Assembly (NCBI GenBank): GCA_022432975.1
Contig: CM039511.1
Coordinates: forward strand, 23,214,557 to 23,278,556
Direction of reading: 5' to 3'
Source of the DNA: Begonia masoniana
Taxonomy: Eukaryota; Streptophyta; Magnoliopsida; Cucurbitales; Begoniaceae
Length of the DNA stretch: 64,000 nt
In this document: piece after piece, positions 1,508-64,000 of the stretch
Position numbering within the stretch: position 1 is the stretch's first letter
How the letters are laid out: each line of letters begins with the position of its first letter
Notes under the pieces: generated by a model
Database searches by the model: none
What the model was told of the DNA's origin: nothing
What the model saw: the letters and a program-made list of their open reading frames with translations, nothing else
Program-made: the position numbers and the translations under genes

Positions 1508-4028
1508 TGTAACGACCTTAATACTCTACCCTTAATTTCTCGTATAAAATTTTTCTTTTTAAAAACATTAGTTAAAGTCTAAATTGTTGGAAATCCTTTG
1601 AAAACTATTTGATAAAAACATATAAACACTTAGTAAAATCGTTGAACAACAAGCAGAGGGCAAAAAGGGCATCTGCCAAAAATATTGCATGACTGATCGA
1701 TCGGCCCTTGAACAGCCGATCGATCGGTTGTGTAAAATAAAGGGGGCGATTGATCGCCCCCTTACCAGGCGATCGATCGCCCCTTGCGATAGATCACCAG
1801 CTGATCGATCGCCCTTTTACAAGCGATCGATCGGCACACGCTCTGGAATTTCTTCCAGAGAGTGGCCAAAGAAGGCCGATCATTCGCCCCTTCTTTGGCG
1901 AACGATCGACAGACTCTTTGGAATTTCCAAAGAGTCACTTCTCTTCTGCCGATCGATCGCCCCTCCATGCGATCGATCGGCAGACTCTCTGGATTTTGAA
2001 ATCCAAAGAGTTGCTCCTCTTCCCTTTTCTTTCTCCCTTCGTTACCCTGTACACCACACTTACACTCACTTCACAATTTCTCATTTCTACTCCACACCTT
2101 CATCACTTCTTCTAAATACATTTTATAACAACACTTCAACATAACAACACTGCTACCCACATAAAATCCACACTTCACTAATCACCCAAAAACTGACTCA
2201 AAACATATTTAAAACGTAACCAAATTTCATAAAAATGAACTACGTGGATCCGTTTAAAAACTGAACATTTCCCACTGTTTGAAAATATCAAAAACACGAC
2301 AAAATACTATACATTATCTATCCAGTTACCAAGCATCCTAAAATGTTCAACTATACAATTTTCCTATCCTGTTATCTATCAAATCCCCAAAACATTACTT
2401 ACATCCCCACGGGTCAAAAATAGCGTCGACTGCGCCAACACACTCCCACGGGCCACCCTTCATCAACATGCTCATACTTCAGGGGGAGGAACGTCGTCCT
2501 CACCTGTCTCGAAATCACCTACACCATAGAATTAAACTATGAGCTAAAGGGCTCAGTACATCTACATAAATGCAGATGAATGCTATGCCTATGCAATGCT
2601 TAAAATCATGCAGTCATCCTACCTTTTCGCTATTCATTTCATTTATGACATCACCGGGGCTTCGCTCTCAGTAGATAGAAGCGGCACATTCGGTGATTGG
2701 ATAGCCCCTCGTATCTATCTGGGGGGAAAACATGCTTCATCTGACAGCCATGTTTGAACTACCATCCCGACGTGACCGTTATTACGTACATTTTTACCTT
2801 TTCGTTATCCTTTTTATGAAAAACATACTTGAAAATTCATTTTGCATGCTTATTCAGAAAACATGATGCATGGACGTGCATAATACAATAATAAAAACAA
2901 ACAATGAACGCTAAACGTTCTATAACTTAAAGTAGCCTAACTACCCAATCTAATTACCCGAAACACGCTACAACTCCAATTCCTCAATTTCAAATACTTT
3001 CTTATGGTGTAAGCCAAACCGGCCAAACAAATCACGAAGACTTACCTCGCGTCCGTTGCAATGCAAGCTCCGTCCACGAGCATTGTTCACCTAAGGCAAT
3101 TCACAACATTCGTCATTAAATCAAATCTAAACCATCGAGTTTCGAAAACTACAAACTCCTAGCTAAAGGAAATTCCCTAAAATTCTATTCTAACTCATTG
3201 AGGCATTTTATTGAGCAATTCATTCTCGTGAATTTCTAAACCTCCATTAATGGAGTTTTTAAAACCTCCAACCACCCAAAAACTCAACAACCCTCATTAA
3301 TTCCAACAAACTTCCTCCAATAACTATAAATACACCAAAAAGAGTTGTAATTAGGGTAAACCTATCGATTTCAACCCCAATCCACATTTTTGACAAAACC
3401 CTAACGAAACCCTAACCGTACAACTCTGCGAAAGCCGAAATCTAAAGCTCCGAACAGTAGATTCTTACCTAGGGTCGGGATTAGAGAAGAAATAGTGGAG
3501 AACGAGTCGATGGAGAACAAGCTTCCGTAGCCAGAGAGGAGAGTCGCGCGAGAGAGGGAGGGAAGTCGCCAAAAGAGGAGGGAGGGATTTGTGATTTTCG
3601 TAGAGTGCTAGGAGAAGAAAGGTTTTTGAGTTTTAATAATATTGGTTTGCAAAATTACCATAACGCCCTTCTATTGATTTTCTATTTGTTTCGTCATTTG
3701 TTTAGTTATTTAGCTAACGATTCAGTTTCTCCAAATTTTCTTATTTCATCGATAGTTCCAACTTATTACTAGGGCTTTATTAAAACTGTCCGTTCAAAAA
3801 ACGGACCTAGTTTACTATATTTACCAAAATACCCATTTTATTACGAGCAACACAAAACTCGTAATTTAGCGTTACAACTCCAAAAATTCTCATATTTCTC
3901 CTAAAATCCGCATTAATCATTAAGATTCTAATAATGCTATTTGCTTGCAAAACGGACTTAATTTGACATATTTACAAAAATGTCATTATTTACTGGAATA
4001 TTAAAATCCCGTAAAACTGGGTGATACA
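1508..4028 (-). repeat. Element B 3' LTR (2,521 bp)
   Basis: It begins TGTAACGACC on the plus strand and ends in GTGATACA, matching 25780-28277 along its full length with scattered substitutions. On the sense (minus) strand it contains, in order: a donor-like CCCTAGGTAAG, an exon-like block rich in CGCTCGTGGACGGAGC ending GAGGTAAGTC, arm 1 of a long-range stem (3003-3013, one mutation), arm 2 (2518-2529), a 15-nt block with AG before and GTGAG after (2504-2518), and the palindrome cluster at 1690-2005. Several stretches appear open but are by-products of the palindromic sequence. No other gene is visible. Confidence 0.9.
1690..2005. repeat. Cluster of GATCGATC palindromes and CTCTGGAA/TTCCAGAG inverted repeats
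   Basis: About ten copies of CGATCGATCG-like palindromes alternate with inverted repeats of the form CTCTGGA...TCCAGAG. The same cluster lies in the partner LTR (25960-26250), and related clusters lie in C (5340-5545) and G (39315-39490). It sits 180-500 nt from the U5 end of the LTR. Confidence 0.85.
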
Positions 4029-5159: not shown

Positions 5160-6459
5160 TGTAGCGACCCTTACCCGTTCCTAATTTTTCTGTATAAAAA
5201 AAATTTTCTCTTTCTTTTATACTTAATGCTTAAGTGGGAAACAATTTGAAATCAATTTAATAAAACATTCATAAACAATTGAATAAAACAGGGAAGAAAA
5301 CATAATCAAAATCGAGGGTAAAATCATCAGAGGCCGAAAATCAACAGAGGCGATCGATGGCTCTTTGCAAAACAGGGGGGCAATCGATCGCCCCTCACAT
5401 TGGCGATAGATCGCCCCACACGATTGATCGCCTGCCGATCGATCACCCCTTTTTGGGTGATCGATCGGCGCACTCTCTGGATTTCCAGAGAGTGCCGACT
5501 CCTCTAATATGCTCTCTGGAATCCGAATTCCAGAGAGCAACTTTCTCCATTTCTTTTCCTCATCCCTTGCACACTTCTTCTTATACAAATACATGCTAAA
5601 ACAATTCAACATAAAATCGTTCATAACCCCATACATTCCTCCCTTTCGTGAATCACCAAATAAACAACCCGAAACATATCCTAGAACGTGTTTAAAGACG
5701 TAGTAAAATTTCGTAAAAACAAACTGCGTGGATCCATTTATAAACTAAACATTTCCTCCTGTTTAAAAGAAAACTCCAATAGTTCCAGTAAATTGCGAAA
5801 TCAAAACAATCTCATTATCAACATCAAATTCAACTAATCCTTACAACAACCTAAACATATTATTTATGTATTTCTACCCAGAGTAGCCCAAAAGACTTAC
5901 ACACATCCCCACGGGTCAAAAATGCCTCGACTGCACCAGCACACCTCCACGACCATTCTTCTTCAACCTGACTCATGCTTCGGGAGGAGGAACATCGTCC
6001 TCACCTGTTTCAAAATCACCTACACCATACAGACAACTATGAGCTAAAGGCTTAGTAAGTTTCTTAAATGCAGATGCATGTTGTGCCTATGCGTTTCATG
6101 AATCATACAGACATGTTCATTTTTCATTACGTTGCAGACAGATTGTCACCGAGGTCTAAACCACCTCGCCGTGACCAGATAACAGATTACGTAGATTCAT
6201 TTGGTTGGTTCATTTTACTTTTTAATTAGGTCGTAGACAGATTGTCACCGAGGGCTAAACCCACCTCGCCGTGACCACATAACAGATTATGTAGATTTAT
6301 TTCGTTCGTTCATTTCATTTTCTTAAACATGTGCAGAAATCTGTTTTCATGCTATTTTAAAAGACGTGATGCATGAACAGTTAGATGCGTAAGGTAAACA
6401 TTCATCATACGTACCATCAAGGCAATAAAAACATAACCTATAAAAGAACTAATCCTAAC
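5160..6459 (-). repeat. Element C: truncated LTR
   Basis: It starts TGTAGCGACCC directly after element B's integrase and runs as a B-like but distinct LTR until element D begins. It carries the palindrome cluster (5340-5545), the 15-nt block with flanking splice-like signals (6005-6019), and arm 2 of the long-range stem (6019-6030). A 99-bp unit is present twice (6134-6330), with a conserved GACAGATTGTCACCGAGG core. The stem's other arm and the rest of C are absent. There is no coding sequence. Confidence 0.75.
6134..6330. repeat. Two-copy 99-bp direct repeat in LTR C
   Basis: The block starting AGACAGATTGTCACCGAGG at 6136 recurs at 6235, and both copies include CCACCTCGCCGTGACCA. It occupies the position, beyond stem arm 2, where other families have their own tandem repeats. 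Confidence 0.85.
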
Positions 6460-7619: not shown

Positions 7620-8862
7620 TGTAACACCCGAAATTTCTATTACACATGTAGCCCTAGTCTAGGTCAAGTATGAGAGTTAATTATCCAAGATTAGGGTTGT
7701 ACATTGAAGTGTTTTAGAAGAGAAATGAGAGGTGGAGAGTTTGACAAGTCAAACCAACTTGTGATTAGTGGAGAACTTTCGTTTGAAAAGTCAAATGCAA
7801 CTAACCAATCAAAATGTAGTAAATTGAAAGGAAGAAGTGGAGGGTTTTAGATGAATCGTTGGCTGCTAAGTGGTGGGGGAAAAGTGAGGGTTAATTGGTA
7901 ATTTACATGGTAATTAAATGAAAAAAAAAAGTTAGGTTTAAAAAGAAGACAAAGTGGTCTTCTTCTCCACTCCATCGACTCTCTCTCTCTCCCTTTCCTC
8001 CATAGCCGACGATTTCCCCCCTTAGTTCTTCATTTTCTCAAGGCAATCCAAGGTAATTTCTCATGGGTTTTGGTTTATGTACTATGGGATGAAGCTTAGA
8101 AGTGTTTGTAGGGTGTTTTAGGAGGTTTTGGTGAGGGTTTGAAAACCCTAAAAGGAGGAGTCCGAAAATTTGGTTTTTTTGGGGGGTTTTCTTCCTATTT
8201 TGGTTATTTAGTTCTTCAATAGGTTAGTTTAGGTTGTTGGAGTGATTAGATTGTGATTTGGAATTGAAATGCACAAAATCGGTTTTTAGGCATAAAGTGA
8301 GCCGATTCTGTTTGCTAGATTTCGAGCTGGCTAGGGTGTTTGTTTAATTGTTTTGAGTGTTTCAATGGATAGTAGACGTGTAGAGGTTTTCGAATTGAGG
8401 TGGCACGTCAAATTGCGTTGAAAAATGAGAGAGTTATGACCGTTTGAAGTTTGACGGTCAAAATTGTACAAAAATCGGGTTTTTGGGTTTTAATATTGAA
8501 ATGTCTTTAGGTGTTGGTTAGTTTTAGGTTTAAGAAGTTGTAGATTTTATTGATGGTTTATCAAGCTAAGTTTCGTTATTTTAGGTCATCGGACGAGTGA
8601 TTTGACCGGTAGAAGTGTGCAACCAGAAGCCGAGCGTTCAGGTAAGTATTGGGTGTTATCCTTTCGCCTTCGGGCCTACACCACAGGACGATAGGGTTTA
8701 TTTGTTATTGCTTTACTTCGTGTACGTTGAGTTATTGTTTTGCTTAGTGTTGTGTTGCATTGTTTGGCCGTGTGGTGTTGTGTTGTCATGTTGGGTTGTG
8801 TCATGTTGTTGACTGCGTTGTGTGTTGTGTTGCATTGTTTGGCGTGGTAGTCGGTGAAAGAG

Positions 8863-9146: not shown

Positions 9147-9778
9147 TATTGTTTGGTCGTGTTATCGTGTTATGTTAAGTCGGTTTGTTGATTTTCATTG
9201 GGATGTTCTGTGATAGTCGGTTAAAGAGCAAGGCATCTTTCGATGCAGTTTTCTTAGGGTTGTGTTGCGTTGCCGTGTTGAGTGGTGTTGTATTGTTGTG
9301 TTAGAGTTGGGTGTGGGTGTGTGTGCATTGTGCTTGTTTATATTTGTTACCCTTACTTGCTAAGCGTAAGCTTACGTGTATGTGTGTGTTCTGTGGTGTA
9401 GGTGACGGAGCATTTACAGGTGAGCTTGAGAGCAATGATCAGAACTAGGAGCAGTCGGAGATCCACGGAGCTCGCTGGTGCAGGCCAATTGTAAAACCCG
9501 TCAATTTTAATAGTTGTAAAAATTTGAATAAATTTTTCGCGAGTTTTAAGTGTAAATAATTGGGATCAATTTCGTTAATTTACGGTAGGAATTTAGACCG
9601 TGAAACCGAACGTTCAATTAAAGGTAATTAATTGTAGCTCAAATAAAAAGAATTAATTAAAATCAAAGTAAAAGAGAGGTAGGTAAAATAATAAATGAAA
9701 TGGATTTAATATAAAATAAAATAATAAAAATAAAACAATTAATAAAATAAATAAAAGTTTTATAATATTTATTTTTAT

Positions 9779-25779: not shown

Positions 25780-28277
25780 TGTAACGACCCTAATACTTTA
25801 CCCTTAATTTCTCGTATAAAATTTTTATTTTTAAAAACATTAGTCAAAGTCTAAATTGTTTGAAATCCTTTGAAAACTATTTGATAAAAACATATAAACA
25901 CTTAGTAAAATCGTTGAACAACAAGAAGAGGGCAAAAAGGAATTTGCCCAAAATATTGCATGGCCGATCGATCGGCTGTGTAAAATAAGGGTGGGCGACC
26001 GATCGCCCCGTTGCCAGGTGATCGATCGCCCCTTGCTATCGATCACCAGCCAATCGATCGCCATTTTACAGGCGATCGATCGGCACACGCTCTGGAATTT
26101 CTTCCAGAGCATGGCCAAAGAGGGCCGATCGTTCGCCCCTTCTTTGGCGAACGATCGGCAGACTCTCTGGAATTTCCAGAGAGTCACTTCTCTTCTGCTG
26201 ATCGATCGCCCCTCCACGCGATCGATCGGCAGACTCTCTGGATTTTGAAATCCAGAGAGCTGCTCCTCTTCCCTTTTCTTTCTCCCTTCGTTACCCTGCA
26301 CACCACACTTACACTCACTTCACAATTTCTCATTTCTACTCCACACCTTCATCACTTCTTCTAAATACATTTCATAACAACACTTCAACATAACAACACT
26401 ACTACCCACATACAATCCACACTCCACAAATCAACCAAAAACTGACTCAAAACATATTTAAAACGTAACCAAATTTAATAAAAGTGAACCGCGTGGATTC
26501 GTTTAAAAACTGAACATTTTCCTCTGTTTGAAAATATCAAAAACACGACAAAATACTATACATTATCTATCGAGTTACCAAGCATCCTAAAATGTTCAAC
26601 TATATAATTTTCCTATCCTATTATCTATCAAATCCCCAAAACATTACTTACATCCCCACAGGTCAAAAATAGCGTTGACTGCGCCAGCACACTTCCACGA
26701 GCCACCCTCCATCAACATGCTCATACTTCGGGCGGAGAAACGTCATCCTCACCTGTCTCGAAATCACTTACACCATAGAATTAAACTATGAGCTAAAGGG
26801 CTCAGTAAATCTACGTAAATGCAGATGAATGCTATGCGTATGCAATGCTTAAAATCATGTAGTCATCTTACCTTTTCGCTATTCATTTCATTTAAGACTT
26901 CACCGGGGCTTCACTCTCAGTAGATAGGAGCGGCACATCAAGCGATTGGATAGCCCCTCGTATCTCCCGGGGGGGGGGGGAAAACATGCTTCATCTGAAC
27001 TCCATGTCTGAACCACCACCCCGACGTGACCGTTATTACATACATTTTTACCTTTTCGTTATCCTTTTTATGAAAAACATACTTGAAAATTCATTTTGCA
27101 TGCTTATTCGGACAACATGATGCATGGACGTGGATAATACAATAATAAAAACAAACATAAAACAAACAATGAACGCTAAACATTTTATAACTTAAAGTAG
27201 CCTAACTACCCAATCTAATTACCCAAAACAAGCTACAACTCCAATTCCTCAATTTCAAATACTTTCTTATGGTGTAGGCCAAACCGGCCAAACAAATCAC
27301 GAAGACTTACCTCGCGTCCGTTGCAATGCAAGCTCCGTCCACGAGCGTTGTTCACCTAAGGCAATTCACAACATTCGTCATTAAATCGAATCTAAACCAT
27401 CGAGTTTCGAAAACTACAAACTCCTAGCTAAAGGAAATTCCCTAAAATTCTATTCTAACTTATTGAGGCATTTTATCGAGCAATTCATTCTCGTGAATTT
27501 CTAAACGTCCATTAATGGAGTTTTTAAAACCTCTAACCACCCAAAAACTCAACAACCCTCATTAATTCCAACAAACTTCCTCCAATAACTATAAATACAC
27601 CAAAATGAGTTGTAATTAGGGTAAACCTATCGATTTCAACCCTAATCCACATTTTTGACAAAACCCTAACGAAACCCTAACCATATAACTCCGCGAAAGC
27701 CAAAATCTAAAGCTCCGAAACAGTAGATTCTTACCTAGGGTCGGGATTACAGAAGAAATCGTGGAAAACGAGTCGCCGGAGAACAAGCTTCCATCGCCGG
27801 AGAGGATAGTCGAGCGAGGGAGGGAGGGAAGTCGCCGAGAGAGGAGGGAGGGATTCTTGATTTTCGTTAAGTGTTGGGAGAAGAAAGGTTTTTGAGTTTT
27901 AATAATATAGGTTTGCAAAATTACCATAACGCCCTTCTATTGATTTTATATTTGTTTTGTTATTTAGCTAATGATTCGGTTTCTCCAAATTTCCATATTT
28001 CATCGATAGTTCCAACTTATTACTAGGGCTTTAGTAAAACTGTTCGTTTGAAAAACTGACATAGTTTACTATATTTACCAAAATACCCATTTTATTACGA
28101 GCAACACAAAACTCGTAATTTAGCGTTACAACTCCAAAGATTCTCATATTTCTCTTAAAATCTGTTTTAATCATTAGGATTCTAATAATGCTCTTTGCTA
28201 GCAAAACAGACTTGACATATTTACAAAAATGCCATTATTTACTAGAATATTAAAATCCCGTAAAACCGGGTGTAACA
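25780..28277 (-). repeat. Element B 5' LTR (2,498 bp)
   Basis: It runs TGTAACGACCC to GGGTGTAACA on the plus strand and is about 93-95% similar to 1508-4028 by eye. Stem arm 1 is intact here (27268-27278), while arm 2 has one change (26767-26777). The left LTR shows the opposite state, so the ancestor had both arms perfect. The palindrome cluster is at 25960-26250. A poly-G run is at about 26969-26980. Confidence 0.92.
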
Positions 28278-29690: not shown

Positions 29691-30421
29691 CTTCATCCTT
29701 CTCCATTCCCTGCACACCACACTTCTCATTTTCATTCCACAACACTCCATCGAATTTTACATAATAACTTATCCACCTATATGCATTTGTTGACTTTATC
29801 TGTTACCTAAAACACGACATGACACTTAGCCTATACACATTTAAATTTCATGAAAACTAACTGCATGGGTCGCTCTAAAAACCGAACATATCCCTACAAA
29901 TTTAAAAACACCCAAACAAGTCTAGTATAATTCAAAATAAAGACTTAACATTTTAAACATTCTACCACCATAACACATACATGAAAACTTAACTTTTCAT
30001 ACATTTTTCTATCAAAACGTTCTATCCACATACATAAACATTTTCATACTTTCTTCCATCACGTTTCTATACACATACCTAAAACTTCCTAATCACTTCC
30101 AAACAAATAGACACCTAACGCATACCAACCACAATCGGAATCACCCTAACAATGTTGTCGGGTTGCTGCCATGGTCGTACTCCTCCAACTGTGTCCAAAA
30201 TCCTAGGCTGCTCGCGAAAACTCACCGTGCCTGTTCTTCTCCACCTATATCACAGAACTCAAACTATAAGCCTAATGCTTAGCAAGTAATGACAATATGA
30301 ATTTAAAACATTTTACTTAACATATGCAGTTTCTATCATTTCAATCATACATAAACATTTTGTTTCATACATACATATAATCCTCTCTCAATGGAGGGCG
30401 GATTAGTTTCTCCATCTCTAG

Positions 30422-30545
30422 GCGTTCCACAATTTCATCCAAAGGTTGAACCACTTCCTTCGGACACCACACATTTTTTGGACGTTCCACAATCTACATC
30501 TGAAGGATGAACCACTTCCCTCAGACACTATACATTTTCTACGGT
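30422..30545. repeat. Two-copy 60-bp direct repeat in LTR L
   Basis: CGTTCCACAAT at 30423 recurs at 30483. Both copies continue with a GTTGAACCACTTCC or GATGAACCACTTCC core. It lies in the loop between the L stem arms. Confidence 0.8.
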
Positions 30546-30809
30546 TGCCATTTTCTACATTCTACTCGTGAAAACAGATGCTTAAAACATTTTCGTATCT
30601 TTTCTAAAACATGATGCATAAACTGAACACACGTAAACAATGCAAGCAAACCTAACATTCTGTGATGTAGGCTTGAAGGCAACACGCATGTAACACTACT
30701 TACCTGGCGTCCTTCGCAATTTATCTGTAACGACCCCCATTCCCAGCAAGATATTGTCCGCTCTGGGGATTGGGCCGCAGCCCAATATCCTCCCCTCACG
30801 GCTTTGTTT

Positions 30810-30890
30810 GGCGAGAACTTCCCGGAAGGTCACCCAACCTGGAATTGCTCTCGCCGAAGCACTTTTAACTTCGGAGTTCTTATGGGATCC
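30810..30890 (-). ncRNA. 5S-rRNA-derived segment in Cassandra LTR 1 (also 31265-31345, 31815-31895, 32270-32350)
   Basis: On the minus strand GGATCCCATAAGAACTCCGA is followed by AGTTAAAAGTGCTTCGGCGA and GGGTGACCTTCCGGGAAGT. These are close to the middle and 3' part of plant 5S rRNA, including the internal Pol III control region. It is not a functional 5S gene, because the 5' third is absent and bases differ. Cassandra elements are defined by such 5S-like LTR sequence. The four copies are nearly identical. Confidence 0.85.
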
Positions 30891-31165
30891 GTTGCCAATT
30901 GTGCTCCAAAACGCGTCTTGCTATCTTGGGAGGGATCTCTTACATATGTTTCATTTCCATGTACTTCCCCAAGCGATGTGGGATTGTGACAACCCCCTCT
31001 TTACGACTCGGGATTCGCCTATACTCGAGTCCGGGATCCATCCACCCCGCAACCCGAGGTTTGCCCCGCAGTCGTACACATACGTATACATTCCATTCGG
31101 GTCATCACAATCACCCCCCCTCGGGGGCCCAACGTCCCCGTTGGCCACATTTCCGGTTGGGTACA

Positions 31166-31178
31166 GGCTCTGATACCA
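31166..31178 (-). other. Cassandra primer-binding site (also 31716-31728 and 32171-32183)
   Basis: TGGTATCAGAGCC on the minus strand lies 2 nt from the adjacent LTR end (GGTCGTTACA). It uses the same initiator Met tRNA as B, E, F and G. Confidence 0.88.
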
Positions 31179-37337: not shown

Positions 37338-39653
37338 TGTAACACCCGGTTTTACGGAACTTTATTATTCCAATATATAATGGCATTTTTGTAAATATGT
37401 CAAATTAAATCTGTTTTGAGAACTAAAAGTTTTAATAGAGTTCTAGCAATAAATTGGAATTATTGGTGAAATAGAAAAATTTAGAGAAACCGAATCGTTG
37501 GTTAAGTAACGAAATAAGTAAAGAAACAAATAGGAAATTAAATGGAGGGGCAATATGGTCATTTTATAAGCCAAAATTACAACAAAAATCACATTTCTCT
37601 CCCTCCCTCAATACTTCACGATTTCCTCTCTGCAAAAAACCCCTACAGGCGACTTTTATTCTCCTCCCTCTCACAACTCTTCTTTTCGGTGAAGAAACTC
37701 CTGCTTCCGGTGATCCACCATTCGCGTTTCTTCTCTATAAACACTCCTTAAGTAAGGTTATATGGTTTTGGAAGGTTTATTTTTATTTTACACGTATTTA
37801 AACAATTAGGGTTTATTTAGGGTTTTTCTAAAAATGTGGATTAAGTTTGAAATCGATAGGTTTAGAATGATTACGCCCCTAATGGATGTATTGATGGTTA
37901 TTGGACATGTTTAGTTGATTTATTGAGAGATATTGGAGTTTTAGGTTGTTAGAGAACTTAGAAACTCCATTAGTGGAGGTTAGAAATTCATGAGCACGAA
38001 TTGCTCGAAGAAATGCTTCAATGAGTTAAATTAGAGTTTTAGGAAATTTTCTTTAGCTAAGAGTTCCTTTAGTTTTCAAAATTTGATGATTTAGGCTCGG
38101 TTTAATGTCGTGTGTTGTCAAATGTTTTAGGTGAACCACGCTCGTGGACGGAGCTTGGTGTGCTACGGACACGAGGTAAGTCTTCGTTACTCGCTTGGCC
38201 GATCCGGCCTACATTATATGAGAGTTTATTGTACGAGGATGTTTGGTGAAATTATTGTTTAGTGTAGGTTGGATGGGTAGTTTAGGATAATCGTTCTGTT
38301 AGAATGTTTTTCATTAGGTTCTATGTATTGTTTACGCTTTCTCTACTTTTATTATACAAATCCATGTTCATGCATCATGTTTTATGAACTAGCATGAAAA
38401 ATGAATTTTCGCATACGTTTTCATGAAAAGAAATGACTAATGAAAGATATGAATGTATGTAATTACGGACATGTCGGGGTGGGGTTCAGACATGGCTGTC
38501 CTGAGAGGAGGAGCATGTTTTCCTCTTGGTAGATGGAAAGGGCTATCTAACCGCCAGATGTGCCCTCTCTATCTGGTGAGAGTAAACCCCTGGTGATGCC
38601 CATGCTATGTGACTAAAGAATGAAAATGATGCATGATTTTATGAACTGCATACGCATCGCACGCATTTGCATTTACGAGAATTTACTGAGCCCTTTAGCT
38701 CATAGGTTATTTCTATGGTGTAGGTGACTTCTAAACAGGTGAGAATGGTATTCCTCCACCGACGCATGAGCAGGTTGATGGAGGATGACCCGTAGGAGTG
38801 CGCTGGGCAATCTGTGCTTATTTTGACCCGTGGGAATGACATGTAGGTATTTTGAGATTTTAATAGATAGAAATGATTGACAATTGTATAGGATGATTCA
38901 GTTGGGCTGATGGGTGATTGGTTAGGAAAAATACAGGTTTTGATGCTTTAGAAAACTAGTTTTACAAATTCCTTTGGTGAAAACTTTTGTTGAGATTATA
39001 CTGGATCTGTTTGGAGTTATTTAGGTTGAGTATGGATACGCTCAAGTTTTAGAGCTATCCATGCAGTTAGATTTCGTAACTTTCGTCTCGTTTTGAATAC
39101 GTTCTAGAATATGTTTCAAGCCGTGTTTTTGGTGATTAAGGAATTGAGGAATGAATAAGGTTATGAATGATTTTATGTTGAAGTGTTTGTTGTGAGTTGT
39201 GTTTAGGTGTATTGTTTAAGTGTATGTGTTGATGAGAGGAAAAGAATGGGAAGAAAAATGGTCAAGTGTGTGTGTGCAGGGCGTTGGAAGAATGGAAAAG
39301 GGAGGAAGGCTCTCTCTGGATTTCCAAAATCCAGAGAGGTCGCCGATCGATCGCCTGGGAGGGCGATCGATCGGCAAGATATGGCTACTCTCTGGATTTT
39401 TTCCAGAGAGGTAGCCGATCGATCGCCTGTAAGGGCGATCGATCGGCTAGAAGATTGATCGCCAAAGGGCGATTGATCGGCTATACATTTTGGGCACGGA
39501 TTGCCTTTTATGCCCTCGATTCATTTGGCCGATTGTTCTACTATTTTAATGTATTTTCTTTAAATGGTTTTGAGGATGTTTTTAATTGATTTAGAGGTTT
39601 AAAAAGAAAAATTTTTACGGGAATTTAAGGGATAGGACATAAGGGACGTTACA
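37338..39653 (+). repeat. Element G 5' LTR (2,316 bp)
   Basis: It runs TGTAACACCC to GGGACGTTACA. Sense-strand landmarks are CTTAAGTAAGG at about 37748 (the 3' LTR keeps CTTAGGTAAGG), an exon-like block 38131-38175 (ATGTTTTAG before, GTAAGTC after), and stem arm 1 38208-38219 with two C-to-T changes. Stem arm 2 is 38713-38724, and a 15-nt block 38724-38738 is followed by GTGAG. Palindromes lie at 39315-39490. There is no gene in this stretch. Confidence 0.92.
39315..39490. repeat. GATCGATC and CTCTCTGGA/TCCAGAGAG palindrome cluster in LTR G
   Basis: CGATCGATCG occurs repeatedly between 39343 and 39445, bracketed by two CTCTCTGGA...TCCAGAGAG hairpins. It lies 160-340 nt before the LTR end, as in B. 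Confidence 0.85.
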
Positions 39654-41727: not shown

Positions 41728-42919
41728 GCCCGGTCACTAAACGACAAAATAGCATTTACATCATCCGGTGAAGGAATACACTTAATCCACCGGTCACTAA
41801 ACGACAAAATAGCATTTACATCATCCGGTGAAGGAATACACTTAATCCACCGGTCACTAAATGACAAAATAGCATTTACATCATCCGGTGAAGGAATACA
41901 CTTAATCCACCGGTCACTCACTAAATGACAAAATAGCATTTACATCATCCGGTGAAGGAATACACTTAATCCACCGGTCACTAAACGACAAAATAGCATT
42001 TACATCATCCGGTGAAGGAATACACTTAATCCACCGGTCACTAAACGACAAAATAGCATTTACATCATCCGGTGAAGGAATACACTTAATCCACCGGTCA
42101 CTAAACGACAAAATAGCATTTACATCATCCGGTGAAGGAATACACTTAATCCACCGGTCACTAAACGACAAAATAGCATTTACATCATCCGGTGAAGGAA
42201 TACACTTAATCCACCGGTCACTAAACGACAAAATAGCATTTACATCATCCGGTGAAGGAATACACTTAATCCACCGGTCACTAAACGACAAAATAGCATT
42301 TACATCATCCGGTGAAGGAATACACTTAATCCACCGGTCACTAAACGACAAAATAGCATTTACATCATCCGGTGAAGGAATACACTTAATCCACCGGTCA
42401 CTAAACGACAAAATAGCATTTACATCATCCGGTGAAGGAATACACTTAATCCACCGGTCACTAAACGACAAAATAGCATTTACATCATCCGGTGAAGGAA
42501 TACACTTAATCCACCGGTCACTAAACGACAAAATAGCATTTACATCATCCGGTGAAGGAATACACTTAATCCACCGGTCACTAAACGACAAAATAGCATT
42601 TACATCATCCGGTGAAGGAATACACTTAATCCACCGGTCACTAAACGACAAAATAGCATTTACATCATCCGGTGAAGGAATACACTTAATCCACCGGTCA
42701 CTAAACGACAAAATAGCATTTACATCATCCGGTGAAGGAATACACTTAATCCACCGGTCACTAAACGACAAAATAGCATTTACATCATCCGGTGAAGGAA
42801 TACACTTAATCCACCGGTCACTAAATGACAAAATAGCATTTACATCATCCGGTGAAGGAATACACTTAATCCACCGGTCACTAAATGACAAAATAGCATT
42901 TACATCATCCGGTGAAGGA
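41728..42919. repeat. 60-bp minisatellite, about 20 copies (H 3' LTR)
   Basis: The unit is CGGTCACTAAACGACAAAAT plus 40 bp, and almost every copy is identical. One copy near 41911 has a 4-bp CACT insertion. The only recurring variant is AAACG/AAATG. The period is a multiple of three, so minus-strand frames stay open with a 20-residue repeat. No spacers are present. Confidence 0.97.
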
Positions 42920-43438
42920 CATTAATCAACAGGAAATACCCCAACTCATTCAGAATGCATATAGCGGAAGACTTACGCAATAGATCATTCATCAACCTTA
43001 AAATCATATCCAGGACTCTAAAGACGAGCCCTTTCAATCCAAGTCTCATTACTATAGGAAATTCTATTCTAATTAGTCATCTGTTCATCGTAAACTTTTC
43101 TGACTTACAATGAGCATAACAAGGGAACTTAATAGCCTATCCAGCCTTACACTGTCATTCTGAGCATCCTTCAGTAACCAGCTTTAAACATCCTCTTTGA
43201 ACATAGTGTCCTCACCTGAACCTTCTTCACCTACACCATAAGGTTTAACTATAAGCCTAATGCTTAGTAAGGAATGCATGCTGTAATGAGTGTACAAAAT
43301 AAGAAACATAAGTCCGTAAATCTTTTTTCATTCATGCTCATTTTCATTATTTACATAGCATGTATTAAGGCAGGAAACGAGGGAGAAAGACAGGGGTACA
43401 TAATCAATTGCCAATAGGGCAATCATAATAATGACTAG

Positions 43439-43710
43439 TTCGGCCTCCACCGGTGGGAGAATTCGCGAACTATCATGCAGTATTAACTCGGCCTCCACCA
43501 GGGTGAGGATTCGCGAGTTTTCCTGCCAATTCAGTCTCCACCAGCGGAAGAATTCGCGAACCGTACTTAACATCCACTCGGCCTCCTCCAGTGGGAGAAT
43601 TCGCGAGCCATACTAATCATCAACTCGGCCTCCACCAATGGGAGATTTCGCGAGCCATACATACCATCATTTCGGCCTCCACCAATGGGAGAATTCGCGA
43701 GCCATTCATG
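43439..43710. repeat. About 46-bp repeat, six copies (H 3' LTR)
   Basis: Each copy has TCGGCCTCCACCA-TGGGAGAATTCGCGA followed by a variable tail. The partner array is at 51459-51730. It lies inside the loop between the H stem arms. Confidence 0.93.
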
Positions 43711-44704
43711 AGCCTTGTGAACATATCATAGTCATTTCCCTCGTTCTGCACTTAATCATGATTACATTTGTTCTTCATGTTCTTAACTCAATCATAAACG
43801 TGTACATAATGCATAGACATGAAGTTTACAGAGAAATATCGTACTGTATGAACGAGTAAAACATCATGTAACTTAACATCTTCCTGCTCAAATACTTCAT
43901 ATCATGGCAACTATTAGTCATAATCATCAGACAAACATTTCAACAATTTTTCCTAGTATCCTTGTGGTGTAGGGCCCTATTGGCCAGAAATCTTAATACA
44001 TCCACTTACCTGGTTCCCTTAGCAATCCGAGCTTCTTCTCTTTAAACTTCTTCACCTAAAACATGTTCATTACAGTAGTTAAAACAAAATCCTAATAGTT
44101 TTAATCATAAATCGTCCTAGGATTCTAATAGCTAAAGTCATTCTGATTCCTCTGTTTGATACACTGCAGTCTGAAATCCGAAAACTAGGCGGACAGGTCT
44201 TACCATCGATTAAATCTGAGTTGGTTACTTAGAATGTTCAAAATTAATTCAGAATGACATCACTACTCTCAGATTTTAAAAGGTCTTAAACTGCTCGGCC
44301 ACTGTTAAAACCAAACTCAAATGCCGAGTTGAAAGCAAAGCTCTATTCACTAATAAATGACTACATTATCCATTTCATACCTCGGGTGCGGATTTGCAGG
44401 GATATGCAAACTTGAAACCGGTCGTCGGAGGGAGGTTGATGGCAAGCAGGGTGCGAGCTCGGGGAAGGAGAAATTGCCGAGAGTAGAAGGTGTCGGCTAT
44501 AGTGGGGTTTAATGAGGTTTAAGGTTTCCAATTTCTTTAAATACCGGTCCCAGACTTCAATTATTACCATAATGCCACTCAACCTAGTTTAAAACCCACA
44601 TGTAATTAATTAAACTTGTCATAAAATTCTAAACCGCGAAGATTAAATATTCATGACCGTTAATACAGTTAGGAAAATTACCTAGTCGTGTCTCGGGTGT
44701 TACA

Positions 44705-49324: not shown

Positions 49325-49841
49325 TAATTGTAACGACCCGAGAAGGATCGTCACGAAATCATAATCTTTTATTAATCGTTTACTTAACTTTTACTATTAT
49401 TTCATCTTTCCTATTTCTCGGCAAGCATTTACATTCGCATATCCTTCTTTTTTTTTTACTAAACTGAAAACAGAGACACAGAACCATCAAGGAAGACGAA
49501 CCCTCTCGTGACTCGACTTCCTACACCTCGTCGACTCAAACCTTCACAGAGTCGGGCGACTAAGCTCAGTCAATTAATCTGTAACTTAATCGGACAAGGA
49601 AGAGATACCCCAGACCACTTGACGTTATACAATTCGGATTTGCATGGGTTTGCATGTATCAACCCTCAGAAATTACATCGTCCGGTCATCACGTGCAATG
49701 CGCGTGACTCGCTTAACATCGCCTAATAGAAGATATCATCTGGTAGGGCACGTGGGTTTCACGTGTCTAATTAAAACATCGCCCAGTGGTGGACATCCCC
49801 GGCGAACACGAGCCAAAACGTGACTCATTAAAATCACGCCC

Positions 49842-51020
49842 GGTCACTAACGACCAAATAGCATTTTACATCATCCGGGGAAGGAATACACTAATCCACC
49901 GGTCACTAAACGACAAATAGCATTTACATCATCCGGTGAAGGAATACACTAATCCACGGTCACTAAACGACCAAAATAGCATTACATCATCGGTGAAGGC
50001 CTACACTAATCACGGTCACTAGCATTTACATCATCCGGTGAAGGAATACACTTAATCCACCGGTCACTAAACGACAAAATAGCATTTACATCATCCGGGG
50101 AAGGAATACACTTAATCCACCGGTCACTAAACGACAAAATAGCATTTACATCATCCGGTGAAGGAATACACTTAATCCACCGGTCACTTAACGACAAAAT
50201 AGCATTTACATCATCCGGTGAAGGAATACACTTAATCCACCGGTCACTAAACGACAAAATAGCATTTACATCATCCGGTGAAGGAATACACTTAATCCAC
50301 CGGTCACTAAACGACAAAATAGCATTTACATCATCCGGTGAAGGAATACACTTAATCCACCGGTCACTAAACGACAAAATAGCATTTACATCATCCGGTG
50401 AAGGAATACACTTAATCCACCGGTCACTAAACGACAAAATAGCATTTACATCATCCGGTGAAGGAATACACTTAATCCACCGGTCACTAAACGACAAAAT
50501 AGCATTTACATCATCCGGTGAAGGAATACACTTAATCCACCGGTCACTAAACGACAAAATAGCATTTACATCATCCGGTGAAGGAATACACTTAATCCAC
50601 CGGTCACTAAACGACAAAATAGCATTTACATCATCCGGTGAAGGAATACACTTAATCCACCGGTCACTAAACGACAAAATAGCATTTACATCATCCGGTG
50701 AAGGAATACACTTAATCCACCGGTCACTAAACGACAAAATAGCATTTACATCATCCGGTGAAGGAATACACTTAATCCACCGGTCACTAAACGACAAAAT
50801 AGCATTTACATCATCCGGTGAAGGAATACACTTAATCCACCGGTCACTAAACGACAAAATAGCATTTACATCATCCGGTGAAGGAATACACTTAATCCAC
50901 CGGTCACTAAACGACAAAATAGCATTTACATCATCCGGTGAAGGAATACACTTAATCCACCGGTCACTAAACGACAAAATAGCATTTACATCATCCGGTG
51001 AAGGAATACACTTAATCCAC
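49842..51020. repeat. 60-bp minisatellite, about 20 copies (H 5' LTR)
   Basis: It has the same unit as 41728-42919. The first four copies (49842-50030) are eroded by small indels, and the rest are nearly uniform. The array's far flank (about 100 bp seen at 42920-43010 in the other LTR) is missing. Confidence 0.96.
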
Positions 51021-51458
51021 CGACTCTAAAGACGAGCCCCTTTCAATCCACGTCTCATACTATAGGAATATTCTATTCTAATTCGTCATCTGTTCATCGT
51101 AAACTTTTTCTGACTTACAATGAGCATAATAGGGAACTTAATCGCTATCCGAGCTTACACTGTCATTCTGAGCATCCTCCAGCAACCAGCTTTAAACATC
51201 CTCTTTGAACATAGTGTCCTCACCTGAACCTTCTTCACCTACACCATATAAGGTTTAATATAAGCCTAATGCTTAGTAAGGAATGCATGCTGGCAGACAT
51301 ACATGAAGTGTACAAAATAAGAAACATAAGTCCGTAATCTTTCTTCATTCATGCTCATTTTCATTATTACATAGCAGGTATTAAGGCAGGAAACGAGGGC
51401 GAAGAAAAGACAGGGGTACATAATCAATTTCCAATCGAGCAATCATAGTAATGACTAG

Positions 51459-52320: not shown

Positions 52321-52969
52321 TCCCTTACTTCTGTTTTCTTCCTTCTGTTTTGTCCTTCTCCTTCTGCTCTCTGAAACTTTGGATTCCAGAGGGCAGAACA
52401 CTTCATGCAAGCTCTCTGGAATCCCCGATTCCATAGAGTAAACCCACTATGTTTTCACACTCCATTTCTCTTCAAAATCAATGAAAATATAACTTAAATT
52501 CAACCGAATCGCAGCAGACTTTGCGAAATCCAACTGTGTGGATCTATTTAAAACCGAGCCTATCCATAGCAACCGAAAAACATTTCAAAACATTTTCATA
52601 ACATTTAATTTAAACAAACAAATAGTTCCAGAATTTCAAAACAAATGTCATTACCTAACATCCTACAATATCTTTACAATTCACGAACCCAAAATACCCC
52701 AAGAAGACCCTCAAAACCTATGCATACGTCCCCACGGGTCAGATGAGCCTCGACTGCGCAACACACTACCACAACCCATCCTCCGTCAACTGCCTCATGC
52801 CTCAGGAGGAGGAAGATCGTCCTCACCTGTTTCCTCGTAAACACCTACACCATACAGACATCTATGAGATAATTAATCTCAGTAAGCTCTAGTAATGCAG
52901 ATGCATGCGTGCGTATGCCATTCAGAAAACATTCTCAATACAGATACAGATTCATTTATTACTTTGCTT

Positions 52970-55350
52970 TGCTTTGCTTTGCTATAACTGTATACCGATT
53001 TCTTTACTTTGCTTTGCTATAAACTGTATACCGATTTCTTTACTTTGCTTTGCTATAAACTGTATACCGATTTCTTTACTTTGCTTTGCTATAAACTGTA
53101 TACCGAAGGGTCATTTAAACTATATACCGAAGGGTCATTTAAACTATATACCGAAGGGTCATTTAAACTGTATACCGAAGGGTCATTTAAACTATATACC
53201 GAAGGGTCATTTAAACTGTATACCGAAGGGTCATTTAAACTATATACCGAAGGGTCATTTAAACTATATACCGAAGGGTCATTTAAACTGTATACCGATT
53301 TCTTTACTTTGCTTTGCTTTGCTATAAACTGTATACCGAAGGGTCATTTAAACTGTATACCGAAGGGTCATTTAAACTGTATACCGAAGGGTCATTTAAA
53401 CTGTATACCGAAGGGTCATTTAAACTATATACCGAAGGGTCATTTAAACTATATACCGAAGGGTCATTTAAACTATATACCGAAGGGTCATTTAAACTAT
53501 ATACCGAAGGGTCATTTAAACTGTATACCGAAGGGTCATTTAAACTATATACCGAAGGGTCATTTAAACTGTATACCGATTTCTTTACTTTGCTTTGCTA
53601 TAAACTGTATACCGAAGGGTCATTTAAACTGTATACCGAAGGGTCATTTAAACTGTATACCGAAGGGTCATTTAAACTGTATACCGAAGGGTCATTTAAA
53701 CTGTATACCGAAGGGTCATTTAAACTGTATACCGATTTCTTTACTTTGCTTTGCTATAACTGTATACCGAAGGGTCATTTAAACTGTATACCGAAGGGTC
53801 ATTTAAACTGTATACCGAAGGGTCATTTAAACTGTATACCGAAGGGTCATTTAAACTATATACCGAAGGGTCATTTAAACTGTATACCGAAGGGTCATTT
53901 AAACTATATACCGAAGGGTCATTTAAACTGTATACCGAAGGGTCATTTAAACTATATACCGAAGGGTCATTTAAACTGTATACCGATTTCTTTACTTTGC
54001 TTTGCTATAACTGTATACCGAAGGGTCATTTAAACTGTATACCGAAGGGTCATTTAAACTGTATACCGATTTCTTTACTTTGCTTTGCTATAAACTGTAT
54101 ACCGAAGGGTCATTTAAACTGTATACCGAAGGGTCATTTAAACTGTATACCGATTTCTTTACTTTGCTTTGCTATAACTGTATACCGAAGGGTCATTTAA
54201 ACTGTATACCGAAGGGTCATTTAAACTGTATACCGAAGGGTCATTTAAACTGTATACCGAAGGGTCATTTAAACTATATACCGAAGGGTCATTTAAACTG
54301 TATACCGAAGGGTCATTTAAACTGTATACCGAAGGGTCATTTAAACTATATACCGAAGGGTCATTTAAACTGTATACCGAAGGGTCATTTAAACTGTATA
54401 CCGAAGGGTCATTTAAACTATATACCGAAGGGTCATTTAAACTATATACCGAAGGGTCATTTAAACTATATACCGAAGGGTCATTTAAACTATATACCGA
54501 AGGGTCATTTAAACTATATACCGAAGGGTCATTTAAACTATATACCGAAGGGTCATTTAAACTATATACCGAAGGGTCATTTAAACTATATACCGAAGGG
54601 TCATTTAAACTGTATACCGAAGGGTCATTTAAACTGTATACCGAAGGGTCATTTAAACTGTATACCGATTTCTTTACTTTGCTTTGCTATAAACTGTATA
54701 CCGAAGGGTCATTTAAACTGTATACCGAAGGGTCATTTAAACTGTATACCGATTTCTTTACTTTGCTTTGCTATAAACTGTATACCGAAGGGTCATTTAA
54801 ACTGTATACCGAAGGGTCATTTAAACTGTATACCGATTTCTTTACTTTGCTTTGCTATAAACTGTATACCGAAGGGTCATTTAAACTGTATACCGAAGGG
54901 TCATTTAAACTGTATACCGAAGGGTCATTTAAACTGTATACCGAAGGGTCATTTAAACTATATACCGAAGGGTCATTTAAACTGTATACCGAAGGGTCAT
55001 TTAAACTGTATACCGAAGGGTCATTTAAACTATATACCGAAGGGTCATTTAAACTGTATACCGAAGGGTCATTTAAACTGTATACCGAAGGGTCATTTAA
55101 ACTATATACCGAAGGGTCATTTAAACTATATACCGAAGGGTCATTTAAACTATATACCGAAGGGTCATTTAAACTATATACCGAAGGGTCATTTAAACTA
55201 TATACCGAAGGGTCATTTAAACTATATACCGAAGGGTCATTTAAACTATATACCGAAGGGTCATTTAAACTATATACCGAAGGGTCATTTAAACTGTATA
55301 CCGAAGGGTCATTTAAACTGTATACCGAAGGGTCATTTAAACTGTATAGC
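52970..55350. repeat. 24-bp minisatellite with higher-order structure
   Basis: The unit AACTGTATACCGAAGGGTCA plus TTTA occurs roughly 85 times. About twelve interspersed variant units contain TTTCTTTACTTTGCTTTGCT. Units differ mainly by ACTGTATA or ACTATATA. The G/A pattern over about 20 consecutive units from 54183 repeats exactly from about 54865, showing a recent block duplication. All frames stay open because the period is a multiple of three. Confidence 0.96.
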
Positions 55351-56403
55351 GAACATCGAAGTACGGTGTAGGCCAAATCGGCCAGAGAAGATCACGAGAA
55401 CTTACTTCGCGTCGTGCAGCTCAGCTCCGTCCACGAGCGTTGTTTGTCTGAGGCAAAACACAACATCGATAATAAAATGGTTTAAGTTTTTAACGTCCAA
55501 AATTGACAAAACCTTAACTAAGAAATTTCCTAAAGATTTGATCTAATTCCCGAGCTGTTAATTCGAGCAATTTACGCTCGGCACCTCAATTCACAATTTA
55601 CGAGGTTTTTCTCTAAAAAACCGAAAATTCCCCATTTTAACTTTTTTCACAAATTGGTTTATTTTCGTCCAATAACGTCCGATACGTTCAATATATATCT
55701 AATCACGGCTTAGACCTTAATTTACGAACCCTAATTCGCATTTTTAACGAAAATCGATCGAAACCCTAATTAATTAAATCTCCTTAAAACTCGAAAATAA
55801 ACTCTCAAAGACGAAAGCTGCATACCTAGGATAGCGAGAGGAGGGGAAACCGTGAAGACAATCGGAACGAACGGAGCTCGGACGGAGGTTGGATCGTCGA
55901 TCGGCGTCGGCGGCTGAGGGAGAAGTTTCTTCTCTGTCGTGAATGCCAGAGAGATAGAAGAAAATGTGAGGGGAGAAGAAGAGATTTCTATAATTTTATA
56001 AATTTGATTTGGCAAATTACTAAACTGCCTTCCATAGTTTTTATATATATTTCGTCCTACGTTCTCGATAATCGGCTAGCGACCATGGGTTCCCCAAATT
56101 TCCCTTATTTCACCAATAGGTTCCAACTATTATTTGAGATTATTAAAACTGTCCGTTCGCAATTTAGACCTCGTTTACTATTTTTACCAAAACGTCTTTT
56201 ATATTACGAGAAGCGTATCTACTCGAAATATAGCGTCCAAACTCCGAAAATTCTCATAATTTCCTTAAAATTCCTATTAATCGTTAGGATCGTAATGACG
56301 CTTTCTTTTTGAAAAATGGATATGATTTGACATATTTACGAAAATGCCATTATATAATATAATAATAACATTTTCAAAAAATCCGTACGAGCCGGATATT
56401 ACA

Positions 56404-61322: not shown

Positions 61323-64000
61323 TGTAACACTCGATTTTACGGGACTTTATTATTCCAATATATAATGGCATTTTTGTAAATATGTGAAATTAAATCCGTT
61401 TTGCAAACGGAAAGTTTTAATAGAGCCATAACAATAAATTAGAATTATTGGTTAAATAAGAAAATTTGGAAAAACCGAATCGTTGGTTAAATAACAAAAT
61501 AAGTAAAGAAACAAATAGAAAATTAAATGGAGGGGCAATATGGTCATTTTATAAGCCAAAATTATAACAAAAATCACATTTCTCTCCCTCCCTCAACACT
61601 TCACGATTTCCTCTCTGCGAAAAACACCTCTAGGAGACTTTTCTTCTCCTCCCTCTCGCGACTCTTCTTTCCAGCGACGAAGCTCCTCCTTCCAGCAATC
61701 CACCCTTTCCGTTTCTTCTCCGTAAACACTCCTTAGGTAAGGTTCTATGGTTTTGGAGGGTTTATTTTCGTTTTACAAGGATTTAAACGGTTAGGGTTCA
61801 TTTAGGGTTTTGTTAAAAACGTGGATTAAGGTTTGAAATCGATAGGTTTAGCATGATTACGTCCCTAATGGATGTATTGACGGTTATTGGACATGTTTAG
61901 TTGATTTATTGAGAGATATTGGAGTTTTGGGTTGTTAGAGAACTTAGAAACTCCATTAATGGAGGTTAGAAATTCATGAGCATGAATTGCTCGATGAAAT
62001 GCCTCAATGAGTTAAATTAGAGTTTTAGGAAATTTTCTTTAGCTAGGAGTTCTGTTAGTTTTCAAAATTCAATGATTTAGGCTCGATTTAATGCCATGTG
62101 TTGTGTAATATTTTAGGTGAACAACGCTCGTGGACGGAGCTCGGTGTGCTACGGACACGAGGTAAGTCTTCGTGACTCGCTTGGCTGATCTGGCCTACAC
62201 CATAGGAGAGTTTATTGTTCGAGGATGTTTGGTAAAATTATGTTTAGTGTAGGTTAGATGGGTAGTTTAGGATAATTGTTCTGTTAGAATGTTTTTCATT
62301 AGGTTCTATGTATTGTTTACACTTTCTCTACTTTTATTGTACAAATCCATGTTCATGCATCATGTTTTATGAACTAGCACGAAAAATGAATTTTTCGCAT
62401 ACGTTTTCATGAAAAGAAATGACTAATGAAAGATATGAATGTATGTAATTACGGTCATGTCGGGGTGGGGTTCAGACATGGCTGTCCTGAGAGGAGGAGC
62501 ATGTTTTCCCCCTGGTAGATGGAAAGGGATATCTAACCACCAGATGTGTCCTCTCTATCTAGTGAGAGTAAACCCCCGGTGATGCCCATGCTGTGTGACT
62601 AAAGAATGAAAATGATGCATGATTTTATGAACTGCATACACATCGCACGCATTTGCATTTACGAGAATTTACTGAGTTCTTTAGCTCATAGGTTATTTCT
62701 ATGGTGTAGGTGACTTCGAAACAGGTGAGGATGATATTCCTCCACTCGACGCATGAGCAGGTTGATGGAGGATGACCCGTGAGAGTGCGCTGGGCAGTCG
62801 GTGCTTATTTTGACCCGTGGGAATAACATGTAGGTATTTTGGGATTTTAATAGATAGAAATGATTGACAATTGTATAGGAAGGTTCAGTTGGGCTGATGG
62901 GTGATTTGATGAGCTCCAAGCCAAAGTAAGGGCTGCATTCAACCCACAAAGAGTAGTGGTTCACTTGGATTTCGGAATAGCAGAAAACAGTAAATTTAGA
63001 TGAATAAATGGATAGGCAAATGAAGTTCGATTCAAACGCCATTTTAAGGGGAGCTTAATATATGAGTGAAAAAAGACTCATTAAATTTTTAGAGCAAAAT
63101 ATTTTGAGAAAATGAAGTTATGATGATAAACCCAAATGCTTTTCGATAAGCAACTATTGAGGCTTTCGGCAAACAATCTTCCGTGGAAGATTCACAGCAA
63201 GTGGAAAATGGTTAATGGCCACTTTCTCTTGCCACCAACCCTTCAAGAGTTGAGAGAAAAGTGGAACGAAGACTACTCAAACAACCACAGGTTTGAGAGC
63301 CTAGGAGGCGTAACTCCTCTTGGTTGTTAACAACCAAGGCTTACCTTGATGGTGCTCCAAACCGCTTCGGGTTTCTCCTTAACAAAACCAATTTTCTATT
63401 CAACCAAAATCAATCTTTACACACACCAATAACCATGGTATATATAGACCTAATTGGCTAAGAGTGGATGGCCGAGATTGAGTTGTGCTTTCTTTAAACA
63501 ATGGTTGAGATTAGCCATAACAAGGATCCACCAAAAAGGCAAAAATGGTCCCCTCCTCTTTGAGTTGGTGCCCAAAGTAGCTTCCATGCAATTTCCTTGA
63601 ATGATTTATACCTTAAGTTTATTCAAACTCTTTTGCCACACTATCCTAACATTCATCTAGTCTTAAATGCCTAAATGCATGCTTTAATAAATCCTTACAA
63701 TAAGGCCATTGTTTGCCAAATAAAACATACAAAATGTAACCAATAGAACACATATAATATTTGGATACAATTAGTTGAATTAGGGAAGACAAATTCCCTA
63801 TTTATCTTTACGCTTCCATTCCAAGCCTTTAAATATTCAACTCCTACAAAATGAGAGGCAAATGCATTACTAAATTCGTCCTTGTCAATAAATGCACTTA
63901 CCTTGATTGGTGACGGAGCCTTGGGCACGTCATGATTGGTTAGGAAAAATACGGGTTTTGATGCTTTGGAAAACTAGTTTTACGAATTCCTTTTGTGAAG
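61323..64000 (+). repeat. Element G 3' LTR, truncated by the window end and containing K
   Basis: It follows the 5' LTR from its first base to the window end; about 0.65 kb remains outside. It keeps the donor CTTAGGTAAGG (about 61731), the exon-like block ending GAGGTAAGTC (about 62117-62160), and perfect stem arms 62194-62205 and 62699-62710. The 15-nt block is 62710-62724. Solo LTR K sits at 62907-63932. Confidence 0.92.
62907..63932. mobile_element. Element K: 1,026-bp solo LTR, TSD TGATT
   Basis: Perfect TGATT duplications (62902-62906 and 63933-63937) flank a TG...CA sequence that is absent from G's 5' LTR. It carries a TATATATAG box at about 63431-63439. It does not resemble the TGTAAC-type LTRs of the other elements and could be from a Ty1/copia or other gypsy family. 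Apparent open stretches (63136-63330 plus strand and 63695-63928 minus strand) lack recognisable features. Confidence 0.85.

Follow-up and report, generated by a model that had tools for sequence, protein, structure and literature searches.

The 64,000-nt stretch of the Begonia masoniana genome analysed here (GenBank assembly GCA_022432975.1, contig CM039511.1, positions 23,214,557 to 23,278,556 of the forward strand; the window) holds nested Ty3/gypsy retrotransposons, several of whose long terminal repeats (LTRs) carry a long-range stem, and the two arms of this stem coincide with the two ends of a candidate intron in the LTR leader. The arms are assigned to the intron ends because arm 2 spans a candidate 3' splice site (CTATGGTGTAG|G in element G), with GTAAGT as the matching 5' splice site; arm 2 includes both the AG of the acceptor and the base that begins the next exon. 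This placing of a candidate acceptor inside the arm is the main addition to a preliminary description of the stem, and with it the stem, previously without an assigned role, is read as pairing the acceptor of a candidate intron in the LTR leader, an arrangement that recurs in very many copies and may be regulatory. The arrangement recurs over many diverged families, with selection on the outer part of the stem and covariation in a hairpin on a branch-point-like motif.

Organisation of the LTR leader

LTR G starts at 61323 (+ strand) with the LTR-start-like motif TGTAACACTCG, supported by self-BLAST with F. Its sense strand reads, in order, a TATA-like site (61547..61557, with transcription probably starting shortly downstream), a CT-rich stretch ending in CTTAG|GTAAGG and taken as candidate exon 1, candidate intron 1 (61737..62116, 380 nt, GTAAGG...TTTTAG, ends unpaired), candidate exon 2 (62117..62161, 45 nt), candidate intron 2 (62162..62709, 548 nt, from GTAAGT to GTGTAG) and candidate exon 3 (62710..62724, starting GTGACTTCGAAACAG and followed by GTGAG). 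Inside candidate intron 2 lie a local hairpin, h1 (62181..62195, including the first two bases of arm 1), arm 1 (CCTACACCATAG, 62194..62205), a branch-point-like hairpin (TTTACTGAG...CTCA, 62668..62688, about 25 nt before arm 2) and arm 2 (62699..62710), the two arms being separated by 493 nt. B, I and E share this plan, as do F and H where it was read; the upstream part of L is replaced by another repeat. Directly before candidate intron 2 of L, where the general plan would place exon 1 and intron 1, the stretch 30723-32569 consists of tandem units some 450-550 bp long. These carry internal copies, three of them on the minus strand, of the motif TGGTATCAGAGC, which we take to be a primer-binding site.

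Donor GTAAGT, branch-like motif and AG acceptor follow each other in fixed order in all eight window introns, the acceptor of the B LTR near 27 kb being mutated to TGTAA. Candidate intron 2 measures 459-779 nt, and 2,561 nt in I, where a tandem array (52986-55353) lies inside it and accounts for the 2.5-kb arm spacing; the arms remain paired across the stretched loop. The distance from the G of GTAAGT to the start of arm 1 is 28 to 40 nt in 68 introns, 33 being the commonest value; the locator looked only in about this range.

The arms listed in the preliminary description were all found again at their positions and on their strands. Pairing is complete in G (12 of 12) and in E (12 of 12; arm 1 CCTACACCACAG, 8675..8686; arm 2 CTGTGGTGTAGG, 9391..9402; candidate intron 8642-9401; branch-point-like hairpin 9357..9374; + strand). 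On the minus strand, 13 of 14 positions pair in H (arm 1 43960..43973, arm 2 43230..43243, candidate intron 43231-44009, branch-point-like hairpin 43249..43272) and in L (arm 1 30658..30671, arm 2 30244..30257, candidate intron 30245-30703), and 11 of 12 plus one G-U in I (arm 1 55361..55372, arm 2 52844..52855, candidate intron 52845-55405). The two B LTRs, also on the minus strand, each keep one arm intact: near 27 kb it is arm 1 (27267..27278; candidate intron 26768-27310), arm 2 there (26767..26778) ending in TGTAA instead of TGTAG, and near 3 kb it is arm 2 (2518..2529), arm 1 there (3002..3013) having a C-to-T change.

Among the 720 partner orders of the six families, 2, one of them the true order, reach the own-partner pair count, and 20 reach the contiguous-run score. 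Both ends of each intron were also shuffled base by base 300 times; 0-1 of these shuffles reached the observed score in G, E, H, I and L, compared with 7 and 17 in the two LTRs of B and 33 in F. Three copies weigh against the stem: in F, arm 1 is decayed (CCTACATTATAT, 38208..38219, + strand) beside an intact arm 2 (38713..38724), C has arm 2 only (6019..6030, minus strand; arm 1 not found), and a second H copy is without the arm 1 side.

Occurrence in the genome and sampling of introns

Two strict patterns for the 3' module matched 29,245 places in the 795-Mb genome, with no match for the reversed controls; the pattern in which arm 2 is fixed at its final four bases alone gave 22,616 places and the TTGCTRAG version 6,629 (controls 0 and 0). 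The 45-nt candidate exon 2 (62117-62161) is very constant genome-wide. Donor and arm 1 region were present in 21 of 28 G-family copies (L001-L028), by a regular expression and inspection only. A scan of viral contigs gave no match; among bacterial and archaeal contigs, a 19-nt motif matched two bacterial records, taken as chance.

Comparative analyses used 87 introns, namely the eight of the window and 79 from 99 loci (L029-L059, L061-L128) drawn from two pattern lists (69 and 30), all on contig C1; 39 of the loci (within L059-L098) were hand-picked for variety. The 20 loci without a row comprise nine with a recognisable 5' module whose donor or arm is changed and 11 with none within 1.3-1.45 kb. 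L080 and L123 were retained, although the locator probably hit the wrong site in both. The pattern used to locate arm 1 (YYTRYR) lets through mainly changes that preserve wobble pairing, and positions 1-4 of arm 2 are set by the genome pattern; counts of G-U versus A-C and of pair-keeping changes at arm positions 1-6 were therefore not relied on, the value there (63 of 85 against 45.0 expected) being inflated. This bias also touches the partner exchange between clusters, the comparison of the H-type cluster, the arm 1 spacing and h1 counts, and the tallies of distinct arm pairs and same-branch changes.

Selection on the outer stem

Positions 1-6 do not lend themselves to a test of selection, because they are too constant and tied to the way in which copies were found; the arm core CCTACAC in particular is very constant. 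Positions 7-12 form the part of the stem untouched by the locator. On a tree built from the flanks of the 87 introns, 52 of 81 substitutions there kept a standard pair against 38.0 expected (7 of 20,000 simulations). The excess appears in arm 1 (42 of 63 events against 32.5 expected; 144 of 20,000) and in arm 2 (10 of 18 against 5.5; 123 of 20,000).

Partner exchange between clusters gave a concordant picture. The own duplex averaged -25.9 kcal/mol, compared with -21.5 kcal/mol for partners from other clusters, and was lower in 51 of 60 introns from nine clusters; over 20 draws of one intron per cluster, 0-10 of 5,000 partner permutations gave an energy no higher than the observed one. The clusters, which differ in their flanks, prefer their own partner on average except cluster 8 (L080, probably a wrong donor site). 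Five of 65 rows whose donor lacked context had been dropped from this set, and five of the 60 retained (L039, L051, L052, L059, L083) are mis-registered at the 3' end in this set, though correctly registered in the 87-intron set.

Among distinct arm pairs, position 7 is C-G in 39 or U-A in 18, position 10 is U-A in 47 or C-G in 4, with seven C-A mismatches, and position 12 is C-G in 15, A-U in 13 and G-C in 8. Arm positions 7-9 contain 33 G-U and 2 A-C cells over 68 distinct arm pairs, much of this due to a single lineage in which position 9 is fixed as G-U. All 14 rows of the H-type cluster have a mismatch or bulge inside the stem, at position 9 or 10, a comparison that included the five mis-registered rows, and in another group the outer stem is, by eye, altered in both arms past a one-base bulge (CAAC/GTTG and CGAT/ATCG). 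We read these results as selection on pairing, supported for the outer half of the stem only.

Flanking hairpins and predicted folds

Two local hairpins flank the stem, h1 before arm 1 and the other on the branch-point-like TTRCTRAG. In 84 of 86 introns the branch-like motif can form a hairpin with four standard pairs (TGAG/CTCA in 49, TAAG/CTTA in 30, TGAG/CTTA in three, TAAG/CTCA in two, and two others), compared with four Watson-Crick pairs in 272 of 4,300 trials (6.3%) with shuffled downstream sequence. The search pattern had fixed its 5' strand (TRAG), not its 3' strand, and the hairpin clearly covaries. Taken jointly, stem and branch hairpin had 94.5% of cells paired against 90.3 in shuffles (1 of 500) and a covariation score of 0.246 against 0.160 (1 of 500); the numbers of pairs changed on both sides and of pair types were not above the shuffles (64 and 281 of 500).

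For hairpin h1, 59 of 68 introns offer four standard pairs (GGCC/GGCC in 40, GACC/GGTC in five, GGTC/GACC in one, and others); some of these fits are due to chance, since the best of several offsets was taken without a shuffled control. It includes one or two bases at the start of arm 1, and because of this overlap h1 and the last pairs of the stem, those covering AG|G, are mutually exclusive.

When the two intron ends were co-folded, the stem appeared in seven of the eight window introns (not in I). Folding of 86 whole introns gave it a probability above 0.5 in 44, and the mean probability of an unpaired AG was 0.12.

Splice junctions and candidate exons

Two patterns for the spliced junction of exon 2 and exon 3 found no match in the genome; the same exon 2 ends before GTAAGT gave 6,713 matches (6,596 for the core CTCGTGGACGGAGCT directly before AGGTAAGT, 117 for another exon 2 type), the unspliced patterns being shorter than the junction patterns and the two counts therefore not strictly matched. 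From the empty junction count it follows that the template is unspliced, or that splicing never happens.

The length of candidate exon 3 up to GTGAG is a multiple of three in 58 of 60 cases; that its length changes almost always come in threes hints at coding. In L035, L036, L038-L040, L051, L052, L056, L059 and L083 candidate exon 3 measures 27 nt instead of 15, and these copies have a second AG|GTGA-like site 12 nt downstream. A third candidate intron is possible at CAG|GTGAG. Exon substitutions were distributed 168:80:248 over the codon positions, but the nonsynonymous rate was below the synonymous rate in a shifted frame too. The LTR exons can be read in an acidic frame that reaches a stop in exon 3 and is open through exon 2 in many families; no consistent ATG was found in them, and several H-type copies have stops in exon 2.

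A proposed gated acceptor and its alternatives

We tentatively favour, at somewhat less than even confidence, the reading that long-range pairing gates the 3' splice site of the LTR leader intron and so leaves unspliced genomic RNA for reverse transcription. The intron would lie in the transcribed part of the LTR, and a segment some 30-45 nt into it would pair with the 3' splice site across about 0.35-1 kb, holding the AG and the first exon base in a helix, with the branch-point-like A in a hairpin. While the helix stands, the acceptor would be shut and a share of transcripts would stay unspliced and usable as genomic RNA; were it to open, or h1 to reclaim the first bases of the arm, the AG would be exposed and a spliced leader made. 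We infer each of three steps from the sequence anatomy: that splicing occurs, that the stem lowers it, and that translation uses the spliced form.

Because reverse transcription regenerates the two LTRs from the termini of the genomic RNA, splicing of the template would remove an intron inside the LTR from the new copy. If splicing happens, something should therefore restrain it, and a helix over the acceptor together with a hairpinned branch-like A is a plain candidate. A fuller version of the gating reading, possible but doubtful, is an RNA switch in the LTRs of a large group of plant Ty3/gypsy elements: h1, the long stem and the branch hairpin would compete for AG|G and the branch A, a transcript could end up as a spliced messenger or as an unspliced template, and the intron would persist even though copying of spliced RNA would strip it.

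Several results weigh against gating or against its foundations. The absence of spliced copies fits a lack of splicing equally well, and nothing in the data separates gating from tethering of the intron ends. The stem had a probability below 0.1 in 34 of the 86 whole-intron folds, and the end duplex lay at or beyond the first percentile of 100 shuffles of its own sequence in only 50 of 87 introns. Candidate intron 1 would also have to be retained, yet no pairing of its ends was found in four of five cases (two of them the two B LTRs), and in E the observed value was reached by 4 of 300 shuffles. Arm 1 positions 7-9 taken alone were not significant (17 of 27 against 14.8 expected), and changes of both partners on the same branch were weak (12 against 7.8 expected, 147 of 2,000; slid registers 1-8). 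The earlier proposal of selection on pairing is supported by the tree-aware test of positions 7-12, where pair-keeping exceeds the phylogenetic background, but weakly by same-branch co-changes taken by themselves.

Of the alternatives, that the leader is never spliced is rather unlikely but survives best. The stem and hairpins would then be a fold of unspliced genomic RNA, serving packaging, dimerisation, nuclear export or control of polyadenylation, and the likeness to splice sites a by-product or decoy. The empty junction count agrees with this, as does the sequence before the acceptor in arm 2, where pyrimidines are not notably enriched (0.54 over 20 nt across 87 rows, compared with 0.55-0.70 at six candidate intron 1 acceptors in the window). 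Such a fold would leave the joint conservation of donor, branch-like motif and acceptor, with gene-like candidate exons on both sides, harder to understand.

It is quite unlikely that the stem instead promotes splicing by drawing the donor close to the acceptor across an intron of 0.5-2.5 kb, with h1 freeing AG|G by taking the first arm bases. In all eight window introns arm 1 is near the donor and arm 2 on the acceptor, the pairing survives in I despite the array that stretches the intron, and arm 1 positions 1-2 are common to h1 and the stem, all of which suits tethering; but an AG and a branch-like A inside helices should hinder the spliceosome, and a well-spliced LTR intron would be lost upon copying. 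The preliminary description suggested as one possibility that the stem brings splice sites together; the AG in the stem and the branch-like A in the hairpin point at least equally to gating.

Shared ancestry alone, with an ancient inverted repeat simply inherited and its pairing not under selection, is very improbable: same-branch double changes are few, as it would predict, but pair-keeping substitutions exceed the prediction from the flank spectrum, and the own-partner preference of clusters with different flanks, cluster 8 excepted, speaks against it. That the arms are two oppositely oriented sites of one DNA-binding protein is scarcely credible, since despite the constant CCTACAC core the family-specific outer bases change along with their partners and G-U is accepted.

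Relation to known systems

According to the portions available of a 2025 review, plant LTR elements are generally without introns, Ogre and EVADE being notable exceptions (PMC12786077); splicing in plant LTR elements is described there and in similarly partial sources for Ogre, BARE1, EVADE, Bagy2 and CRR, in each case outside the LTR (PMC12786077, PMC3735527, PMC6317226). Ogre (Ty3/gypsy, Tat lineage) resembles the present case in having a plant intron spliced from a subset of transcripts, but the available text of the Ogre accounts does not mention paired intron ends (PMC6317226, PMC12786077). In BARE1 and EVADE (Ty1/copia), spliced, translated RNA is likewise kept apart from replicated RNA, but their intron lies in the gag/protease region, the separation in BARE is by promoter, and the excerpts seen describe no stem. 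CRR and Bagy2 are other plant Gypsy elements that splice; unlike the present candidate, theirs are, in the part of the source available, not LTR introns, CRR removing rt and Bagy2 making an env RNA (PMC3735527). A search of the plant centromeric element paper PMC3059260 gave no word beginning with intron or splic.

Distant intronic pairing affects splicing in long-range complementary pre-mRNA regions, in the SMN2 intronic structure and in yeast RPL22 introns (PMC8052449, PMC3783185, PMC5755908, as far as these were available); these are host genes, not an LTR that needs an unspliced template for copying. The RNA transport elements RTE of IAP and MTE of MusD are cis-acting RNA structures that serve unspliced retroelement RNA, but, by the accessible part of the account, act in nuclear export and differ in structure and position (PMC12786077). 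The preliminary description knew of no comparable feature, and an LTR intron with paired ends was likewise not recognised in the literature searched, judged by titles and the opening of abstracts, most subscription papers lying outside this scope.

An intron-like LTR unit with its acceptor in a conserved long-range helix occupies tens of thousands of places in one genome. If spliced, it would offer a direct, mutable handle on how a plant retrotransposon apportions its RNA to translation and to replication, and thousands of natural variants would be at hand for comparing how distant pairing gates a splice site.

Elements and repeats of the window

The nested elements have long direct repeats, LTR starts and primer-binding-site-like motifs, and gag, protease, reverse transcriptase, RNase H and integrase domains were found across them together, not in each one; taken together, they are Ty3/gypsy LTR retrotransposons. 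Their relatives are plant elements, with up to 62% identity in the protein search among the best 120 of 7,780 matches. The name Tekay is a label of the preliminary description, and no chromodomain was among the domain hits of the 10 open reading frames scanned. A 13-bp tandem array with more than 100 copies in register occupies 18498-20300, and the long open reading frames at 18570-20186 and 18656-20332 on the opposite strand are probably by-products of it. The H LTR copies contain tandem repeats of about 60 nt at 41730-42919 and 49840-51022.
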